From a virus: a DNA stretch of 46,963 bases. The notes beneath the pieces are model-generated. The model did no database searches, was not told the origin of the DNA, and was given only the letters and a program-made list of their open reading frames with translations. Every line of letters starts with the position of its first letter. Position 1 is the first letter of the stretch. The stretch is taken from the IMG/VR virus record IMGVR_UViG_3300006749_000023, positions 1-46,963 of that record. The stretch is one strand, 5' to 3'. Of the stretch, positions 9,270 to 39,720 are shown one piece after another. The position numbers and the translations under genes are program-made.

Positions 9270-12200
9270 TTATAAAGCATCAAATGTAAACACATGTCCA
9301 ATTAAATCACAGGCACCTGTGCCATTACTAACTTCAAGTGTATATGATGTTCCTTGTACTAAAGCATTTATTTGTACTAAACCAGATACATTTGGTAAAG
9401 TTACAACATTTGCACCAGTAGCATTATTATAAAGTCTTACTGTATAAGTTGCTCCACCTGTATGATTTAAATTTGTTACATAAATACTAGATAAAGATCT
9501 TGGCCAAACGTTGGTATTAGGATGTGCATTAGGATTAACTGAAAGATTACCTGCACCCATTTTACTAGTCAGCTCATTCCATTGTCCACTTGCACTAAAT
9601 GAACTTGCTGCAGTAGGATACCATGGAGTACCAGTTGTACGACACTTATCACTTAATGGTTCTAATTGCGTAAACTTTATTCTAGTACATTGAGTAACTA
9701 TATCAAATAGTACTACTTTATAAAATCCTGGATATAATGATATTGGATTTACTTCTGCATTTCCATTATAACCTTCATAATAAACATTAACAGCATATTG
9801 ACCAGAACCACCTATACCTGATGCTAATATCTGCCCATTGTTTACATTAATATTTCCTGCATTCCAACTTCCGCTATTTCCAGTTGGAATTGTAGGATCT
9901 GCATTACTTAATAATGCATCAAATCCACTACAATAAACACATGATCCATTTTCTAAATTTGCATTTGGATTGTAGTTATCAGCAGCTGGATCTGTACAAC
10001 CTGATATACAACATGCTGAGTTACAAGCAGCTTCTGTTGTATATATACCACTATGTGTTTCTATACACTCACAATCTCCACAATTTATTGGTTTTTGTGC
10101 TGAAACTGTAATAGTATCACCATTTCCAGCAGCAGCAAGTGCAATTTCAATATCTTCATAATTTGCATTTACTAAACCTGGATTGTTAACTAAACCTGAT
10201 ACAAAACTTGTTAAATCATTCCATGTATTGTTATTTGTAGTAGTCATTTCAAATAAAGTATTAAAACTACTATCTGATATATCAAATTTAACAATTGCAA
10301 ATTGTATACCTCCTGATAGATTATCTACACAATCAGCTGAGCCAAATGGACCATCAATTTGATAACCCCATGGTTGTCTTAAACTTAAAGGTAAACCATA
10401 AGAATCAGGATTTTTTGTCCAATCTCTTGCTGCAACAGTTAAATAAGGTGTAGCTCCTACTTGTGTATAAGCACCTTGTGCATTATATAAAGTTGAATTT
10501 GGTTGTGCTGCAATATTATATCCAGCCAAAGGAGGACTCATTACATCTATTGTAGGATTACCATAATTTGGTACACATTCCCATAATAATGCTCCACCTG
10601 GATTTCCAATAAATATTGAATAATTTTCTGAACACATGATTATTGTACTTCCTCCAACAGTCTTTATCCATTCTAAAACTATTGTATAATTGTCTGTTGG
10701 TAATCCTGTAATAAGATAACTTGTAGCACCACCAGGAATTAAATTAGTTTGAACAAGATTAGCTTGAGAATCATATACTAAAACATTTAAATTAGTACCT
10801 GTATTTACTGATACAGCAAAATTAACTAATACTGAACCGTTTGATGCATTAGAAGGTGTAGGATCTACATAATCAGTAAAAGTAGCATCATGAATAGGTG
10901 TTGGTACACCTTGAGCATTTAAATCATCACAGTATAAACATGTAGAATCATCAATTTGAACATTAGGATCATAGTTTATTGCGTTTGGATCAGTACAACC
11001 ATATGTTAATTGACTATCACAACAATCTTGAATACAGCTTGCATAATCATTATACTGTCCTGTTTGATCTTCAATACAATCACAATTACCATCATTAGTA
11101 CAATTACATAAAGACATAAAAGCTCTAAATGACCAAGCTCCTGGTTGACTTTGAGCAGTTATTATTTTAGCAGTATTCCAATCAGCGTTTGATAAATCAG
11201 GATATGTAGTACCATTATAACCAGCATTAAATAGAGCATTTTGAACTATTGCCCATGAGTCACCACCAGTTTGTATAGTATATGATTGTGGTTGTATTAC
11301 AGGTTGTGGATCATCAAAATCAACTGAAAGTTTTGTTATATAAGCTTGCGCTTCATTTATTAATGCAAAACAACTACCTCCTGCATTATTATCTATTTTA
11401 AAATAGAATCCATCTACAGGAACTACAGGCCAATAAATATTTGAAGATGTCCATTCTTGAGCTAAATTATCATTTAAATTAGGAGTAAGGCTAATAACAT
11501 TAGGTGATGCTAATGTTTTATTACTACAACTATTTGTTATATTTCCTGGTACACAAACAAATTTAGGTCCTATACTTGTATTACAGCATTCTGTTGGACT
11601 ATTTTGACAATCTTGTATAGTTGGATAAATACCTGTACCATCTGTCATTTCAGTACAAGTACATGTTTGAGTTGTTCCAAGACAAGTACATGGACCAGCA
11701 GCAGATGATGGTAAAATTCTTCTATATTGACATTCAGGATAAAGAAGATTCTGTAATGCAGGTTGACCTGGTCCAGTGTATAATGTACCTTGTGATGCTT
11801 GAAGAATAGTAGCTATATCTTGATATGTTAAACTATTAAATGAAGTTATAAAACTATTTGACCAATCAACATACTGTTGACCTTGAGCAAGTGTATCTTG
11901 AAGATAATTTAAAACATCATCCCAACTTTCTGTAATAAATGTTCTTTGTGTAGTACTATTTGCATCTGGAAGTAAACCAGCAGCTGTCCATGAAAGAGGC
12001 CAATCATCATGAGGACATGATGTACCAGCTATATCACTCATAGTAAAGAATATTCCGCCATTAAATTTTATTATATTACCATTTGCATCAACACATTGTC
12101 CTGGTTGAGGTGCAACACCAGTTAATGAATGCACAATAGAATTTATTGGTAAATGTGTAAATCCATTTGCTGGATCAGTATAAAAGTTTAAAGCTTGAGA

Positions 12201-14618
12201 TGAATTTGAAAATGTACCTATATTTGTATATCCATCACAACTATTAAATCCAGGACTTCCTGTTTGAATACATGAATAATTATATGTACAGGAACCATCA
12301 TCACAAGTAGCAGCAGAATTAAAATTGTTTGCATTTGGATCCATACATCCATCTACACATGCTGTACAACAGCTATCCCAACCTACATCATTTTGATACA
12401 AAGGAGATGATGGTGGATTACAATTACAATCTGCTGTTGCAGTAGGATCATAATTAGTTGCAGAAGAATCAGTACAACCAGAGAATAAACATGAATTATC
12501 ACTATGTGTAGCAGAAGAATTATAATTACAAGCAGTAGCATCCATACAACCATAAATTCTTGATTGTGGTTGATCAATAAAGAAAGATGCAGCTTCTGTA
12601 CATGGATTAGTAGCACTATCTGTAACAAAAACATTATATACACCTCCACATATACCTGTTATATTTTGTGTAGTTGCTGTATATCCACTTGGTCCAGTCC
12701 ATTGGAATGTATATGGTGGCGTTCCTCCTGCTACTATAATATTTATAAAACCATCATTTTGACATACAGGAGGAGTGTCATTATTTTCTGTAGCATCACC
12801 TATACTTCCTGTTGTTATAGTAAAAGATTCACAAAACTTACATGATCCATCATCTACAGTTGCGTTTGGATTATAATTATCTGCATTAGGATCAGTACAA
12901 CCTTTTAATAAATTACCAGAAGATGTTGTTTCAGCTGGTTCTTCACATGCTTGAAAAGGTGTTACATCACATGCAGTAAATTTACATTTATCTGTTATGG
13001 TCATAGAAACCTTTTGAGATTTACATCCACCTGTAGTAGTTAAACATGTACATAAATCTAATATGTGTCTTGTGTTAACTGATGCATTATTTACACACCA
13101 TCTTAAAAATCCATTTTCATTTGTTTCTCCAACAACGCCACCATTTATTGTTATTGGATGACAACTAATAGGATTACCATTTTGGTCTTTTACAACAAAT
13201 AGAAAACATTCTGAGTCATTACAATTTTCTAAATCTACAAATGCATCTAAATCATTTTGAAAAGTTTCAGCTTGAAATACTCCTTCAAATACATTTGTTC
13301 CCCATCCATGTTGATCTAATGCACCATATCCTTGAGCAAAATATGGATTAGATGTTTGAATTGGTGTTAATGGTCCTAATGTATTAAATGGTGCTGTAGT
13401 TAATGTACCATCAGCTGGAGTTTTATCACCTGATGTAATAGCTCCTAATACATGTAATGGTAAAGGATGATGTGCTGGTCCAGGATTAGATGGTGCAGAT
13501 GGATACATATAAAAATCAGATTTTCTATCTGCCATTCCAGCCATCCAAATATTTCTTGTTTGAATGAATTGTGTATGATCTGCTGCCCAACAAGGAGTTA
13601 CAGTTCCTGATCCATCTGTAGCATTATTCCAAGTTGCTGGATCACCTTTACCATGATATGGTTGATGATGAGTGGTTGAAGTAGCTTCATCTAAAAATGT
13701 TACAACTAATAAGTTTTGTTTGCTTGCAATAGGAGGCATACCTATTGAAGTAACACCAGCAAAAACTCCACCACTAGTATCAGTTCCTCCGTTACCTCCT
13801 TGAGCTACAGGTAATACTGATGCTGTTACATCAACACCTGCCGGTCCACCATTATGCATAATTACACCATTACTTTGAGCCCATTTTAATATAGCCCAAA
13901 ATTTATTAGTATTATTTACAGACCATGGAAATACTGAATCTGCAGCACTATTACAATCGTTAGTACCAAAGTTTCTGTTAGGATTTGCATCAACATTTAC
14001 AGGTGTTCCTGTTACAGCACTGTTTGATGCACATGGAACACCATTTACATCTATAGTAGCATTACCACCACAACTTCCTGAATTTTGAAACATACCAGTC
14101 ATTGATGATGTAGCCCAATCAAGCCATCTTTCTCCAAATACTGTTGTATGATAATCTTTTACACTTGCACTTATGCCGCCATTACATGAATCAGGATCTC
14201 CTGGTTGATTTGCTTCAGCTTTTACTACTTCAATCCAATCTTTAGCTGCATTATAAGCAGCTTGTACTTGTGTTAAACCTAATGATGTTGCATCATAATA
14301 AAAATAAACTTCTATATCACCTTGTGCCATACCACAAGCTGCATCAACCCATCCAGGTCTATTAGCATCATCTTTAGCACCAGTTGCTGGAGGATCATAT
14401 TTTGTTACTACAGTTTTTATAGAATCATATTGTGTAACTTTAGAATCTTGAAAATCACAAAGGTATTTATCTTTTATATAAGAAGGAAGATTGGAACCAC
14501 AACAAGTACCTACACCATATCTTTCATATCTATATTTTTTAAATATCTCATCAGCAAATCCACGTTCAGTCTGGATTTTTTGTATAGTAGTATCTTTTTT
14601 ATTACAATTTGATTCCAT
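9270..14618 (-). CDS. Large Cys-rich adhesin-like tail protein with vWA-like, SprB-like and GCTDP repeats
   Basis: 1782 residues. Residues about 100-390 resemble a von Willebrand A domain, with a MIDAS-like DATSLG (109-114) and a LLVVTFLDE strand. Residues about 470-550 look like a carboxypeptidase-regulatory/CNA-B fold (DQNGNPISCHPITING, GETNENG). Residues about 597-680 match a SprB-type repeat (GGTPPYTFQWTGPSGY, GGVYNVFVTD). Six copies of a GC[TM]Dxxxx-N[YF][ND]-type Cys repeat start near residues 572, 690, 713, 756, 1206 and 1539, and three CxC...GxY...CC motifs mark larger modules. I see no signal peptide, as expected for a virion protein. It probably mediates attachment to the host surface. 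Two small Cys-rich appendage genes follow in the same operon. Confidence 0.75.
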   Translation of the reverse strand: MESNCNKKDTTIQKIQTERGFADEIFKKYRYERYGVGTCCGSNLPSYIKDKYLCDFQDSKVTQYDSIKTVVTKYDPPATGAKDDANRPGWVDAACGMAQGDIEVYFYYDATSLGLTQVQAAYNAAKDWIEVVKAEANQPGDPDSCNGGISASVKDYHTTVFGERWLDWATSSMTGMFQNSGSCGGNATIDVNGVPCASNSAVTGTPVNVDANPNRNFGTNDCNSAADSVFPWSVNNTNKFWAILKWAQSNGVIMHNGGPAGVDVTASVLPVAQGGNGGTDTSGGVFAGVTSIGMPPIASKQNLLVVTFLDEATSTTHHQPYHGKGDPATWNNATDGSGTVTPCWAADHTQFIQTRNIWMAGMADRKSDFYMYPSAPSNPGPAHHPLPLHVLGAITSGDKTPADGTLTTAPFNTLGPLTPIQTSNPYFAQGYGALDQHGWGTNVFEGVFQAETFQNDLDAFVDLENCNDSECFLFVVKDQNGNPISCHPITINGGVVGETNENGFLRWCVNNASVNTRHILDLCTCLTTTGGCKSQKVSMTITDKCKFTACDVTPFQACEEPAETTSSGNLLKGCTDPNADNYNPNATVDDGSCKFCESFTITTGSIGDATENNDTPPVCQNDGFINIIVAGGTPPYTFQWTGPSGYTATTQNITGICGGVYNVFVTDSATNPCTEAASFFIDQPQSRIYGCMDATACNYNSSATHSDNSCLFSGCTDSSATNYDPTATADCNCNPPSSPLYQNDVGWDSCCTACVDGCMDPNANNFNSAATCDDGSCTYNYSCIQTGSPGFNSCDGYTNIGTFSNSSQALNFYTDPANGFTHLPINSIVHSLTGVAPQPGQCVDANGNIIKFNGGIFFTMSDIAGTSCPHDDWPLSWTAAGLLPDANSTTQRTFITESWDDVLNYLQDTLAQGQQYVDWSNSFITSFNSLTYQDIATILQASQGTLYTGPGQPALQNLLYPECQYRRILPSSAAGPCTCLGTTQTCTCTEMTDGTGIYPTIQDCQNSPTECCNTSIGPKFVCVPGNITNSCSNKTLASPNVISLTPNLNDNLAQEWTSSNIYWPVVPVDGFYFKIDNNAGGSCFALINEAQAYITKLSVDFDDPQPVIQPQSYTIQTGGDSWAIVQNALFNAGYNGTTYPDLSNADWNTAKIITAQSQPGAWSFRAFMSLCNCTNDGNCDCIEDQTGQYNDYASCIQDCCDSQLTYGCTDPNAINYDPNVQIDDSTCLYCDDLNAQGVPTPIHDATFTDYVDPTPSNASNGSVLVNFAVSVNTGTNLNVLVYDSQANLVQTNLIPGGATSYLITGLPTDNYTIVLEWIKTVGGSTIIMCSENYSIFIGNPGGALLWECVPNYGNPTIDVMSPPLAGYNIAAQPNSTLYNAQGAYTQVGATPYLTVAARDWTKNPDSYGLPLSLRQPWGYQIDGPFGSADCVDNLSGGIQFAIVKFDISDSSFNTLFEMTTTNNNTWNDLTSFVSGLVNNPGLVNANYEDIEIALAAAGNGDTITVSAQKPINCGDCECIETHSGIYTTEAACNSACCISGCTDPAADNYNPNANLENGSCVYCSGFDALLSNADPTIPTGNSGSWNAGNINVNNGQILASGIGGSGQYAVNVYYEGYNGNAEVNPISLYPGFYKVVLFDIVTQCTRIKFTQLEPLSDKCRTTGTPWYPTAASSFSASGQWNELTSKMGAGNLSVNPNAHPNTNVWPRSLSSIYVTNLNHTGGATYTVRLYNNATGANVVTLPNVSGLVQINALVQGTSYTLEVSNGTGACDLIGHVFTFDAL

Positions 14619-31506: not shown

Positions 31507-34500
31507 TTATTGGTTCCTTAATATTGATCTAAATTGTGATTGTGTAGGTCCTTTATAAAATGGATGTGGTTTAAATAATGGTAATTGTCCAATACTTGGT
31601 CCTATAATATTATCATAGGATTTATTAAATTGTGGGTTTATACCTGTAAATGTTCTTAAATTAGGATTATTACCAACAGTATTAAACATTCCTATATTTT
31701 CATTATATTTTAAATTAGGATATTTATTAAGTAATCCACTAGCAGTTGTTGGAACTATATTTCCACTTCCAAATACTTTTGCAGCATTAGGTAATGTTTT
31801 ATAACCTCTTAGTAAACTACTAGGTACTCCAGTTAACTCAAATGTTCCAAATGCAGTATTTGCTAAACCTGAAGTAATATCACCTTCTTGAAAATTACTA
31901 ATTGCATTAGGAAATGTATTTACTGCAGCATTAGTACCCCATCCTACATTAGCTAAATCTCCAAATGTTAAAGATCTGCCTGTAACAGGATTAATAGAAC
32001 TACCTCTAACTGTTGTTGATGGTACACTTCCTCTTGTACCTTTAATTACATTTTTTATTCTGCCTGGTATATTTTTTACTACATTTAAAGGTGTAGACAT
32101 AACTGTATTATAACCTTTAAAAGGTAAAACTGTACTAGCTGCAATTTCTATTGGTGACCATGCATTAATTGGATTATAATTATAATCTTCTACAGCTCTT
32201 TCATATCCACCTGCACCTTGAAAAGCTGGTGCAGTTGAATATAACCACATCATATTAGGTGCTATACCTTTTTTCATCCGTTCTTCATGTTGTTTATATG
32301 CTTCTGTATATTCTGCAGCCCGTTGTCTTTCTCCAATAGTTCTATTATCTTGACTTATAAATGTTTGATTTGAACGATTATTATTTAGTTTTTGTATATC
32401 ATTAAAATTAACTTGATTTGTAACTACTCTTGTATTATCTGGCGGAAGAGTATTAAGATTATTTATATAAGGATTATTTAAATTATTATTATTAAAATCA
32501 ATATTAATATTTTCATAATTATAATCTTTATCAAAATCAAATCCTTCTGGTACATATGGTAAATTTTGATCATAACCTGAAACCATTGAATTAATTCCGT
32601 CTTGAACAGATTTATTATAATTTATATATGCTCTTTCTTTTGATCCTTCTGGAAATTGTTCATTAATATATTTTAATAAGTCTCCTCTATTTTGAAATAT
32701 ATTACTATTTTCTTGAGTTCCATCATATTTTTTTATTTCTTCATCTAAAAATTGCATTACTTCTGTAAATTGAGGAGTAGCTACTTCTTCATATGAATAT
32801 GGATGATATGGTTTACCTTTATATGTAAACTCAAAATTATTTGCATCTTTATTTGTAAGATTAGAACGAAGATATGGATTTTGTGTATTTTGTGCTGCAG
32901 TTAAATTATCTCTAGTTTGACCATAATAATCACCAAAACTCATATTAGCAAATTGTGGAAATAAAAGATTAGCAGATTCTATATCACCATCTTTTAAATA
33001 TCCTTGATACCTATTAAAATCATCCATTTTAACAAAATTCTCATAACCACCGTAAGGTTCATATAATCTTTTTTGTCTTTCTAATGCTAATGCTATTTCA
33101 CCAAAGCTTGGCGTTTCAGAGTTATACATTTGTGCTTTTGGTAATGAACCTCCATACTTAACACTCATTGGATCACCAATATCATCACCTATTTCATAAT
33201 TTTGTGCTACAGTATTATTAATATCTATAATATCTTGATCATTAAAAAACTGAAACATTCTTTCAGTTGGTAAATTAGGATTAGGATTATTTTTAATGTA
33301 TTGTTTATATTGTTCAAGTATTTCAGGAGTTAAAACATCTGTACCATAATTAAATCCTATAGTTTTATACATATCATATCTTAAAGCTTCTAAATCTGCT
33401 TTTCTTTCATATACAGATTTATCATGAGAATTTGCATCATCAGAAACATTCATTTTACTTTGTATATAATTATAATCAGCATCATTTAAATTAAAATCTT
33501 TAATATACTTACTTGAACCCATTTGATGACCAAGCTCATGGGCTAATGTTGCTTCTAATTGTGATTTTAATTCAGCAGGAGTTCCTTCAAAACCCATATC
33601 TATATTTAAACCTTGAATTTGTCTTGGATCTAATACAACATCTCCTTGTCTTGATCCTGATGTATAAGCTCTACTGCCTGTTTCACCTCTCATTAATTTA
33701 TTTCTAAGCTCTCTAAATGCTGGAACATCTAGGTGACCATATTGTGATTGTATTATAGCTTGAAATTGATCATCAGTAAATATATTTGGTTCAGCTTCAT
33801 TTCTTATTTTTCTGCTGTCATAATTTAGATCTGCTTCTGTTCTTTCTTCACCTATTCTTGTATAATAAGGATTTGCAAAAAATACATCTTTATAATTATA
33901 ATCTATACCTGAATCTTTATACTGATCATTTAAAAAAGTTACTTTATCAAGAATTTTTTTAATTAAATTAGGATCATCATCATAAGCCTCATCTCTGTAA
34001 GAATTAGAATCTGCATCATACATTACTTTAGAATTAGCTAAAGCATCTTTTCTCATGTCTATAATTTCATCAACATTCTCATAACCTTGATTAATTAATT
34101 TTTGTTTATATAAATCTCCACTTATAGCATTATCATAAAAATCTTTTTGTAATTGTACATCTTCCTTTTTAATTGGATTCATTATTGATTTATATTGCTC
34201 TTGAAACTGTGCTTCTTGTGCTGGACTTTGAAGTTGAGGCCAATATATATCTCCTTGTTGTAATCTGTTTTTATATTCTTTTTTAGAAATGCCTTTCATT
34301 CCAGGCATATTTTTAATGTATTTGTACTGTTTTACCAAATCTTTATATGTCATATTTGATGTACGTACAAACTCTTGACTATCTTTATCCCATGTGTATC
34401 CTGTCGTTGTTTTACCATCAGTAAAAATCTCTGGTTTTAATTCTCTATACCAACTTGTATTATTTGGATCAGCAGCTAATGTACTAGAAAATGCCCCATC

Positions 34501-37500
34501 ATCTAGAATTTCTGAATATGGAACATCTGTTGTAGTAAGATACCTAGCATCACCTAGCGCAGTTTCATATTCTGGATTTAAAATGTAACTACCATCATCT
34601 TGTTTGGTATACATTTTTTGATATAATCCATGAAGAAATCTTTTTTTATTTTCTTTTTCTAAAGTTTCTTTATTCCACAATAGAGGATGAACCATATCAC
34701 CTTCATTATTTATATATGGATTATTAGCAAAGGTTATTTTTTCATCATCACTTAAAGCATTATAAGCATCTGAATCTTCAAACCCTTGTTCAAACCATTG
34801 TGGGTTATAAACACCTGTTCTAGTTTCTACATTACCATCTTTATTTTTATAATCAAATGTAAACTCTCCTTCTGGCACATTAAGAAATTCTGATGGTATA
34901 TATTTATATGTTTCAGCCAGATTAACTTCTGTACCTGGTTGAGCTTTAAAAAGTTCACCCCCATCTTTAAAACCACCAAATGGATTTGTACCAATCATAG
35001 TATTATCTGCTGGAATTACAGTTTGATTTTGTAATTCTTGAATCATTTTTAAATTAGCTTCTTGTCTTTTTAATTCTTCTTCATTTATATTATTTATCCA
35101 TGGTTGTAAATACATATTTAAATATCCTTCATTTCTAGCTAATGGTGAACCACCTTTTTCATCATTTCTAATATATTCTGCTAATGCTTTATCAATATTA
35201 TTAGTCATAATAGCATCAGCAAATTTTGGATATTTACTTAATTTACCAAGATTATATGTATAATCTGCAAGCATAAATTTAGTTCTAGCAGGTAAATTAT
35301 CATATGCAGTTTCTCCATAATTAGCATCAATAAAAATTTTAGTTTTTCTTAATGCGTTATCTATATCTTCTTTTCTAAATAATTCAGCATCTTCTAATGA
35401 TAATCCTGATTTATATGTATCAAAAATATCTGCTCCTTTTCTACCAAAACCTATTGTAGCTTCTGATTCATATGTACCATTTGAATTTTGATGATAATAT
35501 GGGTAAAACTTACCATCTTCATATACTTTATAATATGTTTTGCCATCAGGTTTTAATACTGCTGAATCTTTATTTTTTACATAATCCCAACTTGTTTCTT
35601 CTTCTTGTATAAAGTTTTCAAATTGTTCATATTCATCTTTAAAAGTAACTTCTGCATTTCCTTTTTGAGCTTTTTTTATAGTAAATGTTTGACCACCTGT
35701 TTTATATTTTATATCATCAGGTGTATCATCTAAAGCATAACCTTCAGTTTGTCCACCATACTCTTTAAATGGATTATAAGATTTACGTTGTAAATCAAAT
35801 ATAGTACCACTATAATTATCTAAATCATATGTATTACCTGTATTTATTAATTGTGGATTTTTTTGTAAGTTGCTATAATAACCTAATGTACCTTTTTGAC
35901 TTTTTGTTAAACCATCCATAGCATTCCATCCTTGTATATTACTTATACTTGTAGCATTTGGTATTACAATTTTATTAAATCCTGAATTTTGTAAAAAGTT
36001 TAATGTTTCATTTTCAAATCTGTAATATGGTTTAGACCCTATTCTAGACATTGGAATTAAACTCTCTAAATTAAGATCAGAATTATCCATAATTCTTCTA
36101 GATGTTGGGTAAAGATTTTCACCAGTTTGAGCTAGTCTTGCTAATTCTTGTTGTTGTATATCTAAAGCATTATATTCATCAGCAAATTCATCTAGTCCAA
36201 ATATTTCATTTTTTCTTTGTTGAATATTATTTATTTTATTATTTATATCATTTAAATTGCTAAAATATTTATCATTTCTTTTTTCAACTTGAGGTTTTAT
36301 TTTTAATAATTCAGAACGATTTTTATTACTTAAAAAATCAAACATAGGATCTTTATTTATATCTGTCTGTAATTCTTTAAGTATAAATAACCCTGGGTTT
36401 TCAGCATCTACAAATCCTCTTACCCATCCCATAGCTAATGGATCTAATATATGTAATCCATCATGATGACTATCTAAATATGGTTTTTTTAATAAATTTG
36501 GCATAGAAACAGAATAATTTGTAGGTGTAATTCTAGTTCCTTTAAATTCTGTAAAGCCTCCTGGTAAGTAACTAAATTGTGAAGGTAAAAGATCTGGGTA
36601 TCTATATAATCCAAAATCTGCTCCATCAGAACTTTCCATACCGGTCCATTTAGATCTAAAACCTTGTGTACCATCTATCATACGAGCATCTAAATTATTT
36701 AATAGAGGTTGAAATGCATGATTTGTTACTGCTAAATCTGAAAAACTTTGTTCTTTTAGTTTAGATAAATCTATTTGGTTATTAGATATAAGGCTAGGAT
36801 TATTTTTTAATGTGTTTTCAATAAACATTGCCTCACCTTTATTAAAATTCTTTAATAAAAATTTATCAAACTGCTTAACAGGTAAAAAAGGTTTTTTAGT
36901 AATCATATTATTAAAACCACTAAAAAAGTTATCTGCCAACCTTGTAACAATTTTACCTTTTTGTGCTTTTGCTAATGCTCCTCCTTCTTTTTTATATAAA
37001 CTTTCAAGTGGATCAAATAAAATTCCTTGCTCATCAAAATATTGACGTTTTTTAAATGGATCTAATAAATTAAATTCTTCTCTTGTTAGATTACGTTCAA
37101 GAAGAGGCATGTTAGGATCTTCTACAAATGCTTTATAATCCCAGTCACTAAGTTCAAACTCACGTCCAAGGTAATCACTTATAAAACTTTTACGTGGCAT
37201 ACTGCCATCTGTTTTTCTTCTATAAGTTTGAATTCTTGGAAATTTCATAAAAGTTCCTTCAAAAGGAGTATTTAGACTAAATTTTTCTGTTAGAAGTGGT
37301 GCTATTTGAGCATTTATATCAAGTACATTCTTTCCACGACCTGGAGTACTTATTCCTGCTATATTTTTTCTTATTGTATTACCTCCAGATGTATTTGCAA
37401 ATCCTTCATCACCTGATAAAATTAATGATGGACTATTGGTACGACCTAATAAAAAATTATGTTGATTAGCCATTTCACCACGTCCTCTAAAAGTAGCTAA

Positions 37501-39720
37501 ATTTGTAATTGGATCAACATTCATTAAACCAGCATTTACAACATAATCAGCTACAGGAGTATTTATATCTATATATTGGTATGAAGGTTCTTGTACATAA
37601 CTTACATTTTCTCCATAAGGTTTAGTCTTAAAGCTAAAATTGTTAAATCTATTTTTAGGATTGCTAGTTAATCTTTGAAATGAAGTAGCACCTTGTAATG
37701 GAACACCGCTAGCATAAAATCCATATTTACCATATGACCTTAGATTTTTTTCAAACTCATTAGTAAAATTATCTCTAAGCTTGGTAGCATGTCTATTATC
37801 CCAATCTATTTCTTGATTTCCAATTACAGGATTCCTTGCATTAAAAATAGGAATTCTAGGATCAGCAAATATCTCATTCATAAAAGAAGAAGGTTTTCCT
37901 TTTGTAAGTAACTCTATATAAAACTTAGGATTTATTTCTTTTAAGTCTACAGCCATGTTAGCTGCATCTATAGCAAAATTTTTATCAACATTAAATTGTG
38001 AATAATTTTTTGCAAGATCAGCAAAATTACCTACAGGTTGAAAATCAGGTTGATTTATATTTGATATTACAGCCTTTTCATAATCTGTAAGATTTCCAAA
38101 ATCAATTCCTTTTAAGTTTAGCTCATTAACTCCTATAAGTTGAGGATTAAAATCAAAAGTTTGATTTATTCCTCTAAGATCTAAATTAGGATTATTAGTT
38201 CTAATTAATTTAAGTAAATCCGGTCTAATTTTTTTAGGTGTATATTTAAGAGCATTTATACCGTATTTTAATAAACCTGCTTTACCCCCTGGTTGAAGTT
38301 TAGGTAAAGATCCCCCGTACTTACCATCATCTGTTAAAGCATCATATGTATCTTTAAGTCCTGAATAAAGAGCTACTAACGAATTACTTTTTTTAAGTCT
38401 ATCTAAATTCTGTTGATTTTTACTATATATAACGCCTTGATTTTGGTTTGAAGCAACAGATTGATTTATTAAATCTTGCCTTTGTTGAGCTGCATAATCA
38501 GCATCTGATATAATTTCTACTGGAGGTGCAGTTTGATTACTATATCCAGAAAATGTATCTGATGCATTTGGTGTAATACCATAATCTATATCACCTCCAT
38601 AATTTTTATTAGCTATTGCACCTGATCCATCATAAGTATCATATCCGTATAGTGCTCCGTAATTAACATCTGGTCTCTCAGATCCAGTACCAAAAAATCT
38701 ATCTATAAATGTATCTCCAAAATTTGTTTGATAACCTGACCATTGATTACCACTAGCAACATTTACTTTCATATTAGTTTCATCAGCTAATCTTTGACCA
38801 GCATCACTTTTTTTGCATACACCCATATAACATGTAATACCAGAAGCATCATCAAAAGTTTCATTAATTACTTCAGCAAATGTATCTGTAAGACCAGGTG
38901 TTTGATCATAACCAAAATGTTTTCTTTCTTGTTCACCATACATTATTGGTCCAACTTTACTTGTACCATGTTGCATTATAATAATATCACCAGTAGGGCT
39001 TAAGTTTTTTATATCTTGAAAATATTTATTTGTTGCATCAACAGGACTTATATATTGTTGTTCTTGTTCTTCTAGTTCTGCTAGTTTTATTTCATTTAAT
39101 ATATAGTTTAAATGATCTTTGCTTTCAAATAATGCGTCATCTAATAATTTAAATTCTCCTTTATTAACGTTATAGAAATGGTCTTGATCCGAATATGTTA
39201 ATGGTGATAATGTTTTCATTAACTCCTCTTCTTCTTTTCCTAATCTTCTTAGTTTATTTTGTAATTCAATAATTTCTTTAGATTCTGGATCATAGTCAGC
39301 TTCATTATAACCCTCTAAACCTTCTTTTCTTTTATATAAATCTAGCTCTAAGTCACCAAATTGTTTTCGTATCTCTTCTCTTTTTTTTCTTGTTTGTTTT
39401 AAATACGAATTTGCTTCATTTTCATCAGCAATAGTTTGATAAGTATCACTAAGAGCTACATTAGGTAATGGTCTTGCAATCCAATTACCAACTCCATATC
39501 TCTCGTTTAACTCAGGAGTCATTCTTTCTAGGTCACTTGAAAAGTAACCTTCTGGATCTCTAGGATCATAATAAATTACTGCTTGATATTGCGGTTTACC
39601 ACCAGGAACACCTCTGCTAGAAGTATAAGCTACATCTGGATTTAACATAAATGTTCCATCTTCTACTTCACCAACATAACCCTTTTGCGCTTTTGCTAAT
39701 TTTTTGAGTTTTCTCGCCAT
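31507..39720 (-). CDS. Giant multidomain virion/cargo protein with peptidase, lysozyme and metalloprotease modules
   Basis: 2737 residues with at least three enzyme-like modules. Residues about 240-330 look like a clan CD cysteine peptidase (MQHGTSKVG near 246, ITCYMGVC near 295, then a LADET-x-MKVNVAS strand). Residues about 1365-1540 resemble a GH24 lysozyme (FENFIQEEE, TIGFGRKG near 1420). Near 2059 is AHELGHQMG, with YERKAD near 2103 as the possible third ligand, a gluzincin-type metalloprotease. Near 1110, FILKELQTD recalls domains of large polyvalent phage proteins. A Gly-Gly...Lys-Ala-Gln motif recurs near residues 9, 466, 909, 1339, 1585 and 2187. The Ala/Gly-rich C-terminus could contact membranes. 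It probably travels in the virion and enters the cell with the DNA. Confidence 0.75.
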   Translation of the reverse strand: MARKLKKLAKAQKGYVGEVEDGTFMLNPDVAYTSSRGVPGGKPQYQAVIYYDPRDPEGYFSSDLERMTPELNERYGVGNWIARPLPNVALSDTYQTIADENEANSYLKQTRKKREEIRKQFGDLELDLYKRKEGLEGYNEADYDPESKEIIELQNKLRRLGKEEEELMKTLSPLTYSDQDHFYNVNKGEFKLLDDALFESKDHLNYILNEIKLAELEEQEQQYISPVDATNKYFQDIKNLSPTGDIIIMQHGTSKVGPIMYGEQERKHFGYDQTPGLTDTFAEVINETFDDASGITCYMGVCKKSDAGQRLADETNMKVNVASGNQWSGYQTNFGDTFIDRFFGTGSERPDVNYGALYGYDTYDGSGAIANKNYGGDIDYGITPNASDTFSGYSNQTAPPVEIISDADYAAQQRQDLINQSVASNQNQGVIYSKNQQNLDRLKKSNSLVALYSGLKDTYDALTDDGKYGGSLPKLQPGGKAGLLKYGINALKYTPKKIRPDLLKLIRTNNPNLDLRGINQTFDFNPQLIGVNELNLKGIDFGNLTDYEKAVISNINQPDFQPVGNFADLAKNYSQFNVDKNFAIDAANMAVDLKEINPKFYIELLTKGKPSSFMNEIFADPRIPIFNARNPVIGNQEIDWDNRHATKLRDNFTNEFEKNLRSYGKYGFYASGVPLQGATSFQRLTSNPKNRFNNFSFKTKPYGENVSYVQEPSYQYIDINTPVADYVVNAGLMNVDPITNLATFRGRGEMANQHNFLLGRTNSPSLILSGDEGFANTSGGNTIRKNIAGISTPGRGKNVLDINAQIAPLLTEKFSLNTPFEGTFMKFPRIQTYRRKTDGSMPRKSFISDYLGREFELSDWDYKAFVEDPNMPLLERNLTREEFNLLDPFKKRQYFDEQGILFDPLESLYKKEGGALAKAQKGKIVTRLADNFFSGFNNMITKKPFLPVKQFDKFLLKNFNKGEAMFIENTLKNNPSLISNNQIDLSKLKEQSFSDLAVTNHAFQPLLNNLDARMIDGTQGFRSKWTGMESSDGADFGLYRYPDLLPSQFSYLPGGFTEFKGTRITPTNYSVSMPNLLKKPYLDSHHDGLHILDPLAMGWVRGFVDAENPGLFILKELQTDINKDPMFDFLSNKNRSELLKIKPQVEKRNDKYFSNLNDINNKINNIQQRKNEIFGLDEFADEYNALDIQQQELARLAQTGENLYPTSRRIMDNSDLNLESLIPMSRIGSKPYYRFENETLNFLQNSGFNKIVIPNATSISNIQGWNAMDGLTKSQKGTLGYYSNLQKNPQLINTGNTYDLDNYSGTIFDLQRKSYNPFKEYGGQTEGYALDDTPDDIKYKTGGQTFTIKKAQKGNAEVTFKDEYEQFENFIQEEETSWDYVKNKDSAVLKPDGKTYYKVYEDGKFYPYYHQNSNGTYESEATIGFGRKGADIFDTYKSGLSLEDAELFRKEDIDNALRKTKIFIDANYGETAYDNLPARTKFMLADYTYNLGKLSKYPKFADAIMTNNIDKALAEYIRNDEKGGSPLARNEGYLNMYLQPWINNINEEELKRQEANLKMIQELQNQTVIPADNTMIGTNPFGGFKDGGELFKAQPGTEVNLAETYKYIPSEFLNVPEGEFTFDYKNKDGNVETRTGVYNPQWFEQGFEDSDAYNALSDDEKITFANNPYINNEGDMVHPLLWNKETLEKENKKRFLHGLYQKMYTKQDDGSYILNPEYETALGDARYLTTTDVPYSEILDDGAFSSTLAADPNNTSWYRELKPEIFTDGKTTTGYTWDKDSQEFVRTSNMTYKDLVKQYKYIKNMPGMKGISKKEYKNRLQQGDIYWPQLQSPAQEAQFQEQYKSIMNPIKKEDVQLQKDFYDNAISGDLYKQKLINQGYENVDEIIDMRKDALANSKVMYDADSNSYRDEAYDDDPNLIKKILDKVTFLNDQYKDSGIDYNYKDVFFANPYYTRIGEERTEADLNYDSRKIRNEAEPNIFTDDQFQAIIQSQYGHLDVPAFRELRNKLMRGETGSRAYTSGSRQGDVVLDPRQIQGLNIDMGFEGTPAELKSQLEATLAHELGHQMGSSKYIKDFNLNDADYNYIQSKMNVSDDANSHDKSVYERKADLEALRYDMYKTIGFNYGTDVLTPEILEQYKQYIKNNPNPNLPTERMFQFFNDQDIIDINNTVAQNYEIGDDIGDPMSVKYGGSLPKAQMYNSETPSFGEIALALERQKRLYEPYGGYENFVKMDDFNRYQGYLKDGDIESANLLFPQFANMSFGDYYGQTRDNLTAAQNTQNPYLRSNLTNKDANNFEFTYKGKPYHPYSYEEVATPQFTEVMQFLDEEIKKYDGTQENSNIFQNRGDLLKYINEQFPEGSKERAYINYNKSVQDGINSMVSGYDQNLPYVPEGFDFDKDYNYENINIDFNNNNLNNPYINNLNTLPPDNTRVVTNQVNFNDIQKLNNNRSNQTFISQDNRTIGERQRAAEYTEAYKQHEERMKKGIAPNMMWLYSTAPAFQGAGGYERAVEDYNYNPINAWSPIEIAASTVLPFKGYNTVMSTPLNVVKNIPGRIKNVIKGTRGSVPSTTVRGSSINPVTGRSLTFGDLANVGWGTNAAVNTFPNAISNFQEGDITSGLANTAFGTFELTGVPSSLLRGYKTLPNAAKVFGSGNIVPTTASGLLNKYPNLKYNENIGMFNTVGNNPNLRTFTGINPQFNKSYDNIIGPSIGQLPLFKPHPFYKGPTQSQFRSILRNQ

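Follow-up and report, generated by a model that had tools for sequence, protein, structure and literature searches.

MARTX autoprocessing toxins carry arrays of effectors with processed linkers, and the cargo-loading peptides of encapsulins are short and attach their cargo to a shell of HK97 fold; at the locus described here, processing and shell binding would be candidate functions of a motif. Polyvalent proteins, encoded by phages and conjugative elements, are large and multidomain, combine lysozyme, metallopeptidase and other domains in changing sets, and probably accompany the DNA when it is packaged or transferred (PMC5512222, in the sections covered). The 2737-aa protein that concerns us may resemble them in those respects, but no Pfam polyvalent domain was detected in it, although ART-PolyVal was found in two of 68 related motif proteins, and the sections of PMC5512222 covered mention no recurring inter-module peptide. 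For the crAss001 cargo proteins C1 (gp45) and C2 (gp46), storage in the virion and ejection have been inferred; their genes directly precede an RNA polymerase gene, and only parts of one cargo protein and one unassigned fragment were resolved in the structure (PMC10172136, sections covered). Most other motif proteins share this genome neighbourhood. In contrast, the gene of the 2737-aa protein lies elsewhere, its product gave no tblastn match, to gp45, gp46 or any other protein, in 50,697 phage records, and the part of crAss001 covered has no strict motif. The capsid-targeting sequences of T4 and SPN3US lie, as short signals, at the N-termini of internal proteins that are ejected, but they have another sequence (AXE in SPN3US) and are removed by a known protease (PMC7411985, sections covered), whereas here KAQxG is conserved and, although one copy is N-terminal (MARKLKKLAKAQKG), most are internal, in front of modules. 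Modular injected proteins of the polyvalent kind and N-terminal capsid-targeting peptides (T4, SPN3US; PMC7411985, sections covered) are known. No description of a strictly conserved peptide repeated ahead of exchangeable modules was found in the literature searched, the scope of which excluded subscription papers and preprints.

The giant gene and its modules

The window, that is, the whole 46,963-nucleotide stretch of DNA analysed, belongs to a phage that is also present as a 114,084-base contig (L070/G001). Its terminase was 24-26% identical over 84-89% to those of crAss-like and related records (best 20 of 134), and its portal 23-33% identical to the portals of named records (best 15 of 61 records). 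Both proteins are homologous to their Crassvirales counterparts, which places the phage in the Crassvirales or close to them, and by these sequences the window comes from a crAss-like phage. Among the portal matches listed, the closest named phages have Cellulophaga and Bacteroides as hosts; the highest identity (32.5%) was to Leptolyngbya phage Lbo-JY46, isolated on a cyanobacterium.

Three side observations were made on these genomes. A 484-aa protein of Lbo-JY46 (L219:1868-3322) begins MKIRIIGLPKAQIG. A 1782-aa tail-region protein of the window (9270-14618, minus strand) contains several Cys-rich repeats, GCTDPxAxNYxPxAxxDDGSC. The 245,646-base record IMGVR_UViG_3300030098_004828 (G038) encodes a portal of this family twice, at 21.6 and 148.8 kb, each copy being 72-73% identical to the window portal; it is two phages joined in assembly or else an unusual genome.

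The 2737-aa ORF, P0001, runs on the minus strand from 39720 to 31507 with an ATG start. In the contigs of all nine relatives the giant gene lies directly before an ORF of 95-134 aa, followed in 7/9 by a 220-221 aa ORF that we take to be PhoH-like. The module sets of the giant gene vary among these nine relatives, in six of which it is cut at the 5' end; the ORF caller was greedy, and the start codons of some genes (the giants of G030 and G058) are doubtful. The features of the locus, all on the minus strand and with motifs located by a scan of the protein, are given below; L208 is a syntenic relative, and L209 and L026 are further related contigs.

31507..39720, minus: giant modular ORF P0001, 2737 aa, in a slot common to the contigs of nine relatives
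39679..39720, minus: motif 1, N-terminal copy and candidate tag MARKLKKLAKAQKG, residues 1-14
38614..39612, minus: module 1, residues 37-369, peptidase-like; H251-G252 and C297 conserved
38284..38322, minus: motif 2 KYGGSLPKLQPGG, residues 467-479
36991..38283, minus: module 2, residues 480-910; no family match, its relatives being copies of the same phage only
36955..36990, minus: motif 3 KEGGALAKAQKG, residues 911-922; L208 retains the site as KEGGALPKAQSG
35704..36954, minus: module 3, residues 923-1339; no family match, found beyond same-phage copies in L208 only
35659..35703, minus: motif 4 KTGGQTFTIKKAQKG, residues 1340-1354; YQNG form in L208, L209 and L026
35023..35652, minus: module 4, residues 1357-1566, predicted T4-lysozyme-like fold (AF2 model and VIA)
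34933..34968, minus: motif 5 KDGGELFKAQPG, residues 1585-1596; left end of the module that L208 lacks
33160..34932, minus: module 5, residues 1597-2187; HELGH at 2061-2065; exactly absent from L208
33130..33159, minus: motif 6 KYGGSLPKAQ, residues 2188-2197; right end of the module that L208 lacks
31507..33129, minus: module 6, residues 2198-2737, C-terminal; retained in L208 and, more distantly, in L209

All six motif sites proposed in an earlier, sequence-only reading of this DNA were present, the lysine (residues 10, 474, 918, 1350, 1592 and 2195) falling within about eleven residues of the positions given there. Internal copies have the form [K/R/Q]-[Y/x]-G-G-x-L-x-K-A-Q-x-G, with KLQ in the second copy and no final glycine in the sixth (KAQMY). 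K[AL]Q.G occurs five times in the protein (mean 0.095 and maximum 3 in 20,000 residue shuffles), as does the GG...K[AL]Q form (mean 0.018, maximum 3, in as many shuffles).

The same reading had named peptidase-like, polyvalent-like, lysozyme-like and metalloprotease parts. Whole-protein searches of Pfam and PHROG returned no family at useful scores, and the polyvalent label found no counterpart, since no such domain was detected with either resource. The chain may combine several enzymatic domains, of which the lysozyme gained structural support and the metalloprotease and peptidase are assigned by sequence only. The metalloprotease label of module 5 comes from HELGHQMG at residue 2061 and a sub-threshold Pfam hit. 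The peptidase label of module 1 comes from HG and TCYMG-C, conserved in one relative; this module is 52-60% identical to one in L026 that is sited behind an internal motif, while here it follows the N-terminal copy. Since structure prediction of module 1 reached a mean pLDDT of 37 and yielded no fold, the cysteine-peptidase idea comes from sequence and from a presumed likeness to clan CD, and just one further contig carries a module of this kind.

Module 4 is predicted to fold like T4 lysozyme. An AF2 model of residues 1320-1620, built on 8 sequences, had a mean pLDDT of 62 over 301 residues, with residues 1357-1566 mostly at 70-90 and one loop under 50. VIA aligned 145 residues of the module with the phage 21 endolysin (3hde; Z 11.2, rmsd 3.2) and gave a Z of 10.8 against T4 lysozyme; the best Foldseek E was 5e-3. 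In the module 4 alignment a conserved E and TIG are seen, candidates for part of the E-D-T that is catalytic in T4 lysozyme. A comparison of modules 1 and 4 with the sequences of solved structures gave nothing useful. The flanks with motifs 4 and 5 lie outside the lysozyme fold, at pLDDT below 50, which is weak evidence of disorder because the alignment is shallow there. Burial of the motif inside a single fold, which would have contradicted the idea of a boundary, was thus not seen in the one module whose fold was obtained. The lysozyme module recurs in seven other contigs, mostly with different company or order.

The motif in related phages

A degenerate DNA pattern for Y-G-G-x-L-x-K-A-Q-x-G, run on the viral collection, retrieved 69 stretches, 64 of which contained KAQ.G in an open frame of at least 400 aa, many with two or more copies. 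The view in the earlier reading that the motif occurs in other phage proteins is supported, with many motif proteins across the scanned contigs. Of 68 distinct records, 47 encode a homologue of the window portal, mostly 58-78% identical, and the others include fragments; the motif thus belongs mainly to one branch of crAss-like phages. A stricter motif pattern gave 0 contigs in bacterial genomes. Strict KAQ.G was not found in crAss001 (base 11,000 on), cr1_1, phi14:2 or FpV21 (first 50 kb) either, and is therefore not a general crAss loading signal in the parts covered.

In 15 environmental crAss-like contigs of about 104-126 kb, 14 of which had been selected through the motif scan while the 15th is the window's own phage, KAQ.G was counted 49 times (6.7 expected from shuffles): 40 times in proteins of at least 500 aa (4.4 expected), 8 times in those under 200 aa (0.9 expected) and once between (1.0 expected). 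None of 19 altered words exceeded 10 occurrences; KAN.G, KAE.G and KSQ.G had 8-9 each, and KYQ.G, with 10, was not clearly enriched alone, but is taken as a sister form of the motif. As 14 of the contigs were selected by the motif, the 15 sites with the scan pattern were removed. Among the remaining 34, L or I stands two residues ahead of the lysine in 27 and GG lies upstream in 13, which sets the core at [L/I]-x-K-A-Q-x-G, with GG ahead of it in some of the internal copies. Seven scan loci (L007, L012, L023, L037, L052, L054 and L060) were omitted from most later counts, since they have a single motif, the same in all, in a single protein and include a 37-kb contig with other gene content; L004, L019 and L039 were omitted too, and the slices L174 and L175 (L007 group) and L182 and L183 (L004's contig) were left out of the N-terminal count and of a count of motif-site pairs in which copies of one locus recur. 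The L007 group, which includes a 36.9-kb contig, has QYGGxLDKAQLG once, the protein being about 690-770 aa long when not truncated, and because it occurs only once, this motif is probably a coincidence. The labels C1-like, muzzle-like, PhoH and RNA polymerase on environmental contigs are tentative, being given mainly by position or size rather than by family search.

The motif also occurs at N-termini. KAQ.G or RAQ.G was N-terminal in six of 2170 ORFs, the 2737-aa ORF included (0.47 expected): besides MARKLKKLAKAQKG, these copies are MAKNLPKAQGG (L209), MKKLLKAQKG (G026), MKKLRRAQKG (L010) and MAKIKKAQNG (G035), the sixth case being a portal protein. Q.GG lay within the first 25 residues of 6/29 proteins with the motif elsewhere, compared with 2/1659 others; these six amount to about two or three independent cases, because four are of one family and two are C1-like. 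An LP[KE][AG]-like N-terminal pattern gave no clean separation (6/26 motif proteins and 9/331 others, 7 of the 9 being C1-like). In the C1-like family the motif borders a region of variable length (tens to about 800 residues), often after a Q/M/P-rich stretch, and 5/14 C1-like homologs have no motif by regular expression yet carry decayed forms at the same place.

As further observations on N-termini and small proteins, the two motif proteins of L057/G035 and L068/G027 have in common an N-terminal element of ~40 aa (LKIAGV.sE.EFY..Y.SE..F) just before the motif, and the first 70 residues of a motif protein found no match among named phages. The left end of G001, L073:4604-7265, encodes small, basic proteins that contain KKGG or KGGSYSK (MAMREYKYKKGG, MPGYKMKPYGKGGSYSK) and may be internal to the virion.

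Most motif proteins are encoded in one region. Of those with at least 380 aa, 23 of 26 (15 contigs) lie 2.7-17.5 kb upstream of the contig's largest gene, on the same strand; this gene, of 2929-5444 aa, is presumably the RNA polymerase, by size and place. The exceptions are the 2737-aa protein, whose gene is 47 kb from the largest gene and so outside the cargo region, its counterpart in G030 (52 kb) and one portal. At E 0.01, Pfam detected LysM (9), SLT (6), YkuD (6), PG_binding_1 (2), ART-PolyVal (2) and amidase (1) in 68 of the 75 motif proteins, two slices of the 2737-aa protein, two L174 ORFs, the portal and two occurrences judged chance being left out; HE.GH words were found in 8 of 73 proteins (73/75 used; 0.05 expected). 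The family of the G001:78920 gene, to which several motif proteins belong, matches phi4:1 gp040 (E 6e-16, residues 12-88 and 561-621), a protein annotated as virion by MS/MS and having four [YF]Q.GG sites. With hhalign, families A, B and C showed no clear match to crAss001 proteins, and family A gave only a weak score against known phages (FpV21, prob 35). We consider it likely that motif proteins of this kind are virion or ejected cargo; the 2737-aa protein would be virion cargo too, judging from the modules and motif that it shares with them.

Gains, losses and swaps at the motif

The proposal that the motif falls at the boundaries of modules is supported by pairs of relatives that differ by one module. 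L208 lacks exactly 603 residues, GG to GG, between motifs 5 and 6, and the crossover falls within the 8-codon motif: up to GG its DNA follows the motif-5 side, at 92-98% identity, and immediately past KAQ it follows the motif-6 side, at 88-90%, the opposite side being 23-43% identical. In a second pair, of an unrelated protein, a 716-aa module present in L030 is missing from L024, the break again lying at the motif, and the two copies that border the module in L030 are identical over 24 bases to each other and to the one copy of L024. In G013, a module beginning at the motif occurs twice in tandem. Across 79 non-redundant motif proteins, homology that reached the site stopped there in 191 of 229 scored comparisons, and control positions within these proteins gave 791 of 3046; intermediate scores (19 motif, 550 control) were set aside, and the comparisons are not independent of one another. 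Together, the precise losses and the homology switches agree with the sequence-only reading in placing the motif at boundaries, here those of independently exchangeable modules, and we regard it as nearly certain that motif sites are module boundaries. Homologs keeping a domain but losing the motif would have counted against that reading, and here the outcome was divided: relatives with the same module keep the site, but some carry a decayed form, or YQNG in place of KAQKG, at that same site.

Roles considered for the motif

Our preferred reading, held tentatively, is that the motif is a recognition tag for virion loading or docking. The 2737-aa protein would be modular cargo that a crAss-like phage packs into its virion and ejects into the host, and its modules would be exchangeable cassettes (T4-like lysozyme, HELGH metallopeptidase-like, cysteine-peptidase-like and others with no match), each beginning with or joined by a short peptide of core [L/I]-x-K-A-Q-x-G, often with GG upstream in internal copies. 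A phage partner may read this peptide as a loading or docking signal, as suggested by the presence of the same peptide at the N-termini of such proteins; it would then resemble a T4 capsid-targeting sequence copied ahead of every module, and cleavage beside it, e.g. after GG, may accompany docking. Because a linker has no job at an N-terminus, the N-terminal copies favour a tag, and a virion-loading or docking tag is more likely than a bare linker. Points against it are the site of the 2737-aa gene outside the cargo region, the strict motif being missing from the parts of other crAss-like phages covered, the C1-like homologs with decayed forms, the portal among the N-terminal cases, and flanks that are only slightly more polar than control on the left and no different on the right.

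Alternatively, the protein could be a polyprotein whose modules are freed by cleavage at or close to K-Y-G-G|x-L-x-K-A-Q-x-G, either in assembly or once it has been injected, as has been proposed for polyvalent proteins. Several copies per chain, one per module, would fit such processing, as would the frequent GG ahead of internal copies and the N-terminal copies without GG (K/R at residues 6-14), which look like cut products; peptidase-like modules exist, and P1 DarA and DdrB are processed, metallopeptidase autoproteolysis having been proposed (PMC5512222, sections covered). However, HE[x][GA]H..[GA] occurs in proteins of at least 380 aa in only 2 of the 15 motif-bearing contigs, so that self-processing by the HELGH module was rejected as a general rule; cysteine-peptidase-like modules are as scarce as noted above, a Pfam scan of ten phage proteins, mostly conserved ones, detected no peptidase, GG accompanies only 13 of the 34 sites outside the scan pattern, and some motif proteins have a single site. 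The N-terminal copies, together with the lack of a common peptidase in this limited search, favour a tag over cutting. We regard release of the modules by cutting as rather doubtful, and a processing site of any kind, with or without a tag function, as the less probable case.

The motif could also be a passive hinge, no more than a soluble linker, with DNA that offers a short repeat for in-frame recombination of modules. The identity of the L030 flanking copies over 24 nt, with one copy kept in L024, and the L208 crossover inside the motif are what such a joint would produce. Nevertheless, conservation is lacking at the DNA level, where 93 sites encode G-G-K-A-Q by 29 different codon strings, and codon identity within proteins (0.65, 26 pairs) is near the 0.60 expected from codon use; a passive joint also leaves unexplained the strict KAQ.G, the N-terminal copies and the copies in proteins of 82-197 aa. 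We consider it unlikely, and a DNA-level signal as sole cause was rejected, since codons vary freely even though one pair shares an identical 24-nt repeat. Finally, it is highly improbable that the motif is an artefact of choosing contigs by it, as was done for 14 of the 15: the 34 sites left after removal still far exceed the 6.7 expected for all sites, the module-loss pairs are independent of frequency, and a chance origin was ruled out by the shuffles and the 15-contig counts.

The bolder form of the tag reading, that of a portable address by which any module placed behind [L/I]-x-K-A-Q-x-G would be loaded and injected, the same stretch acting as the swap joint in one crAss-like branch, is a possibility to which we give limited credence. 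If true, injected effectors would evolve as interchangeable cassettes behind one shared protein signal. For the selection, loading and threading of the megadaltons of protein cargo in crAss-like phages, the motif is a concrete candidate signal, and it offers a route to likely injected effectors in metagenomes. These swappable modules joined by a putative tag suggest an unrecognised signal for loading or releasing the proteins that such phages inject into bacteria.
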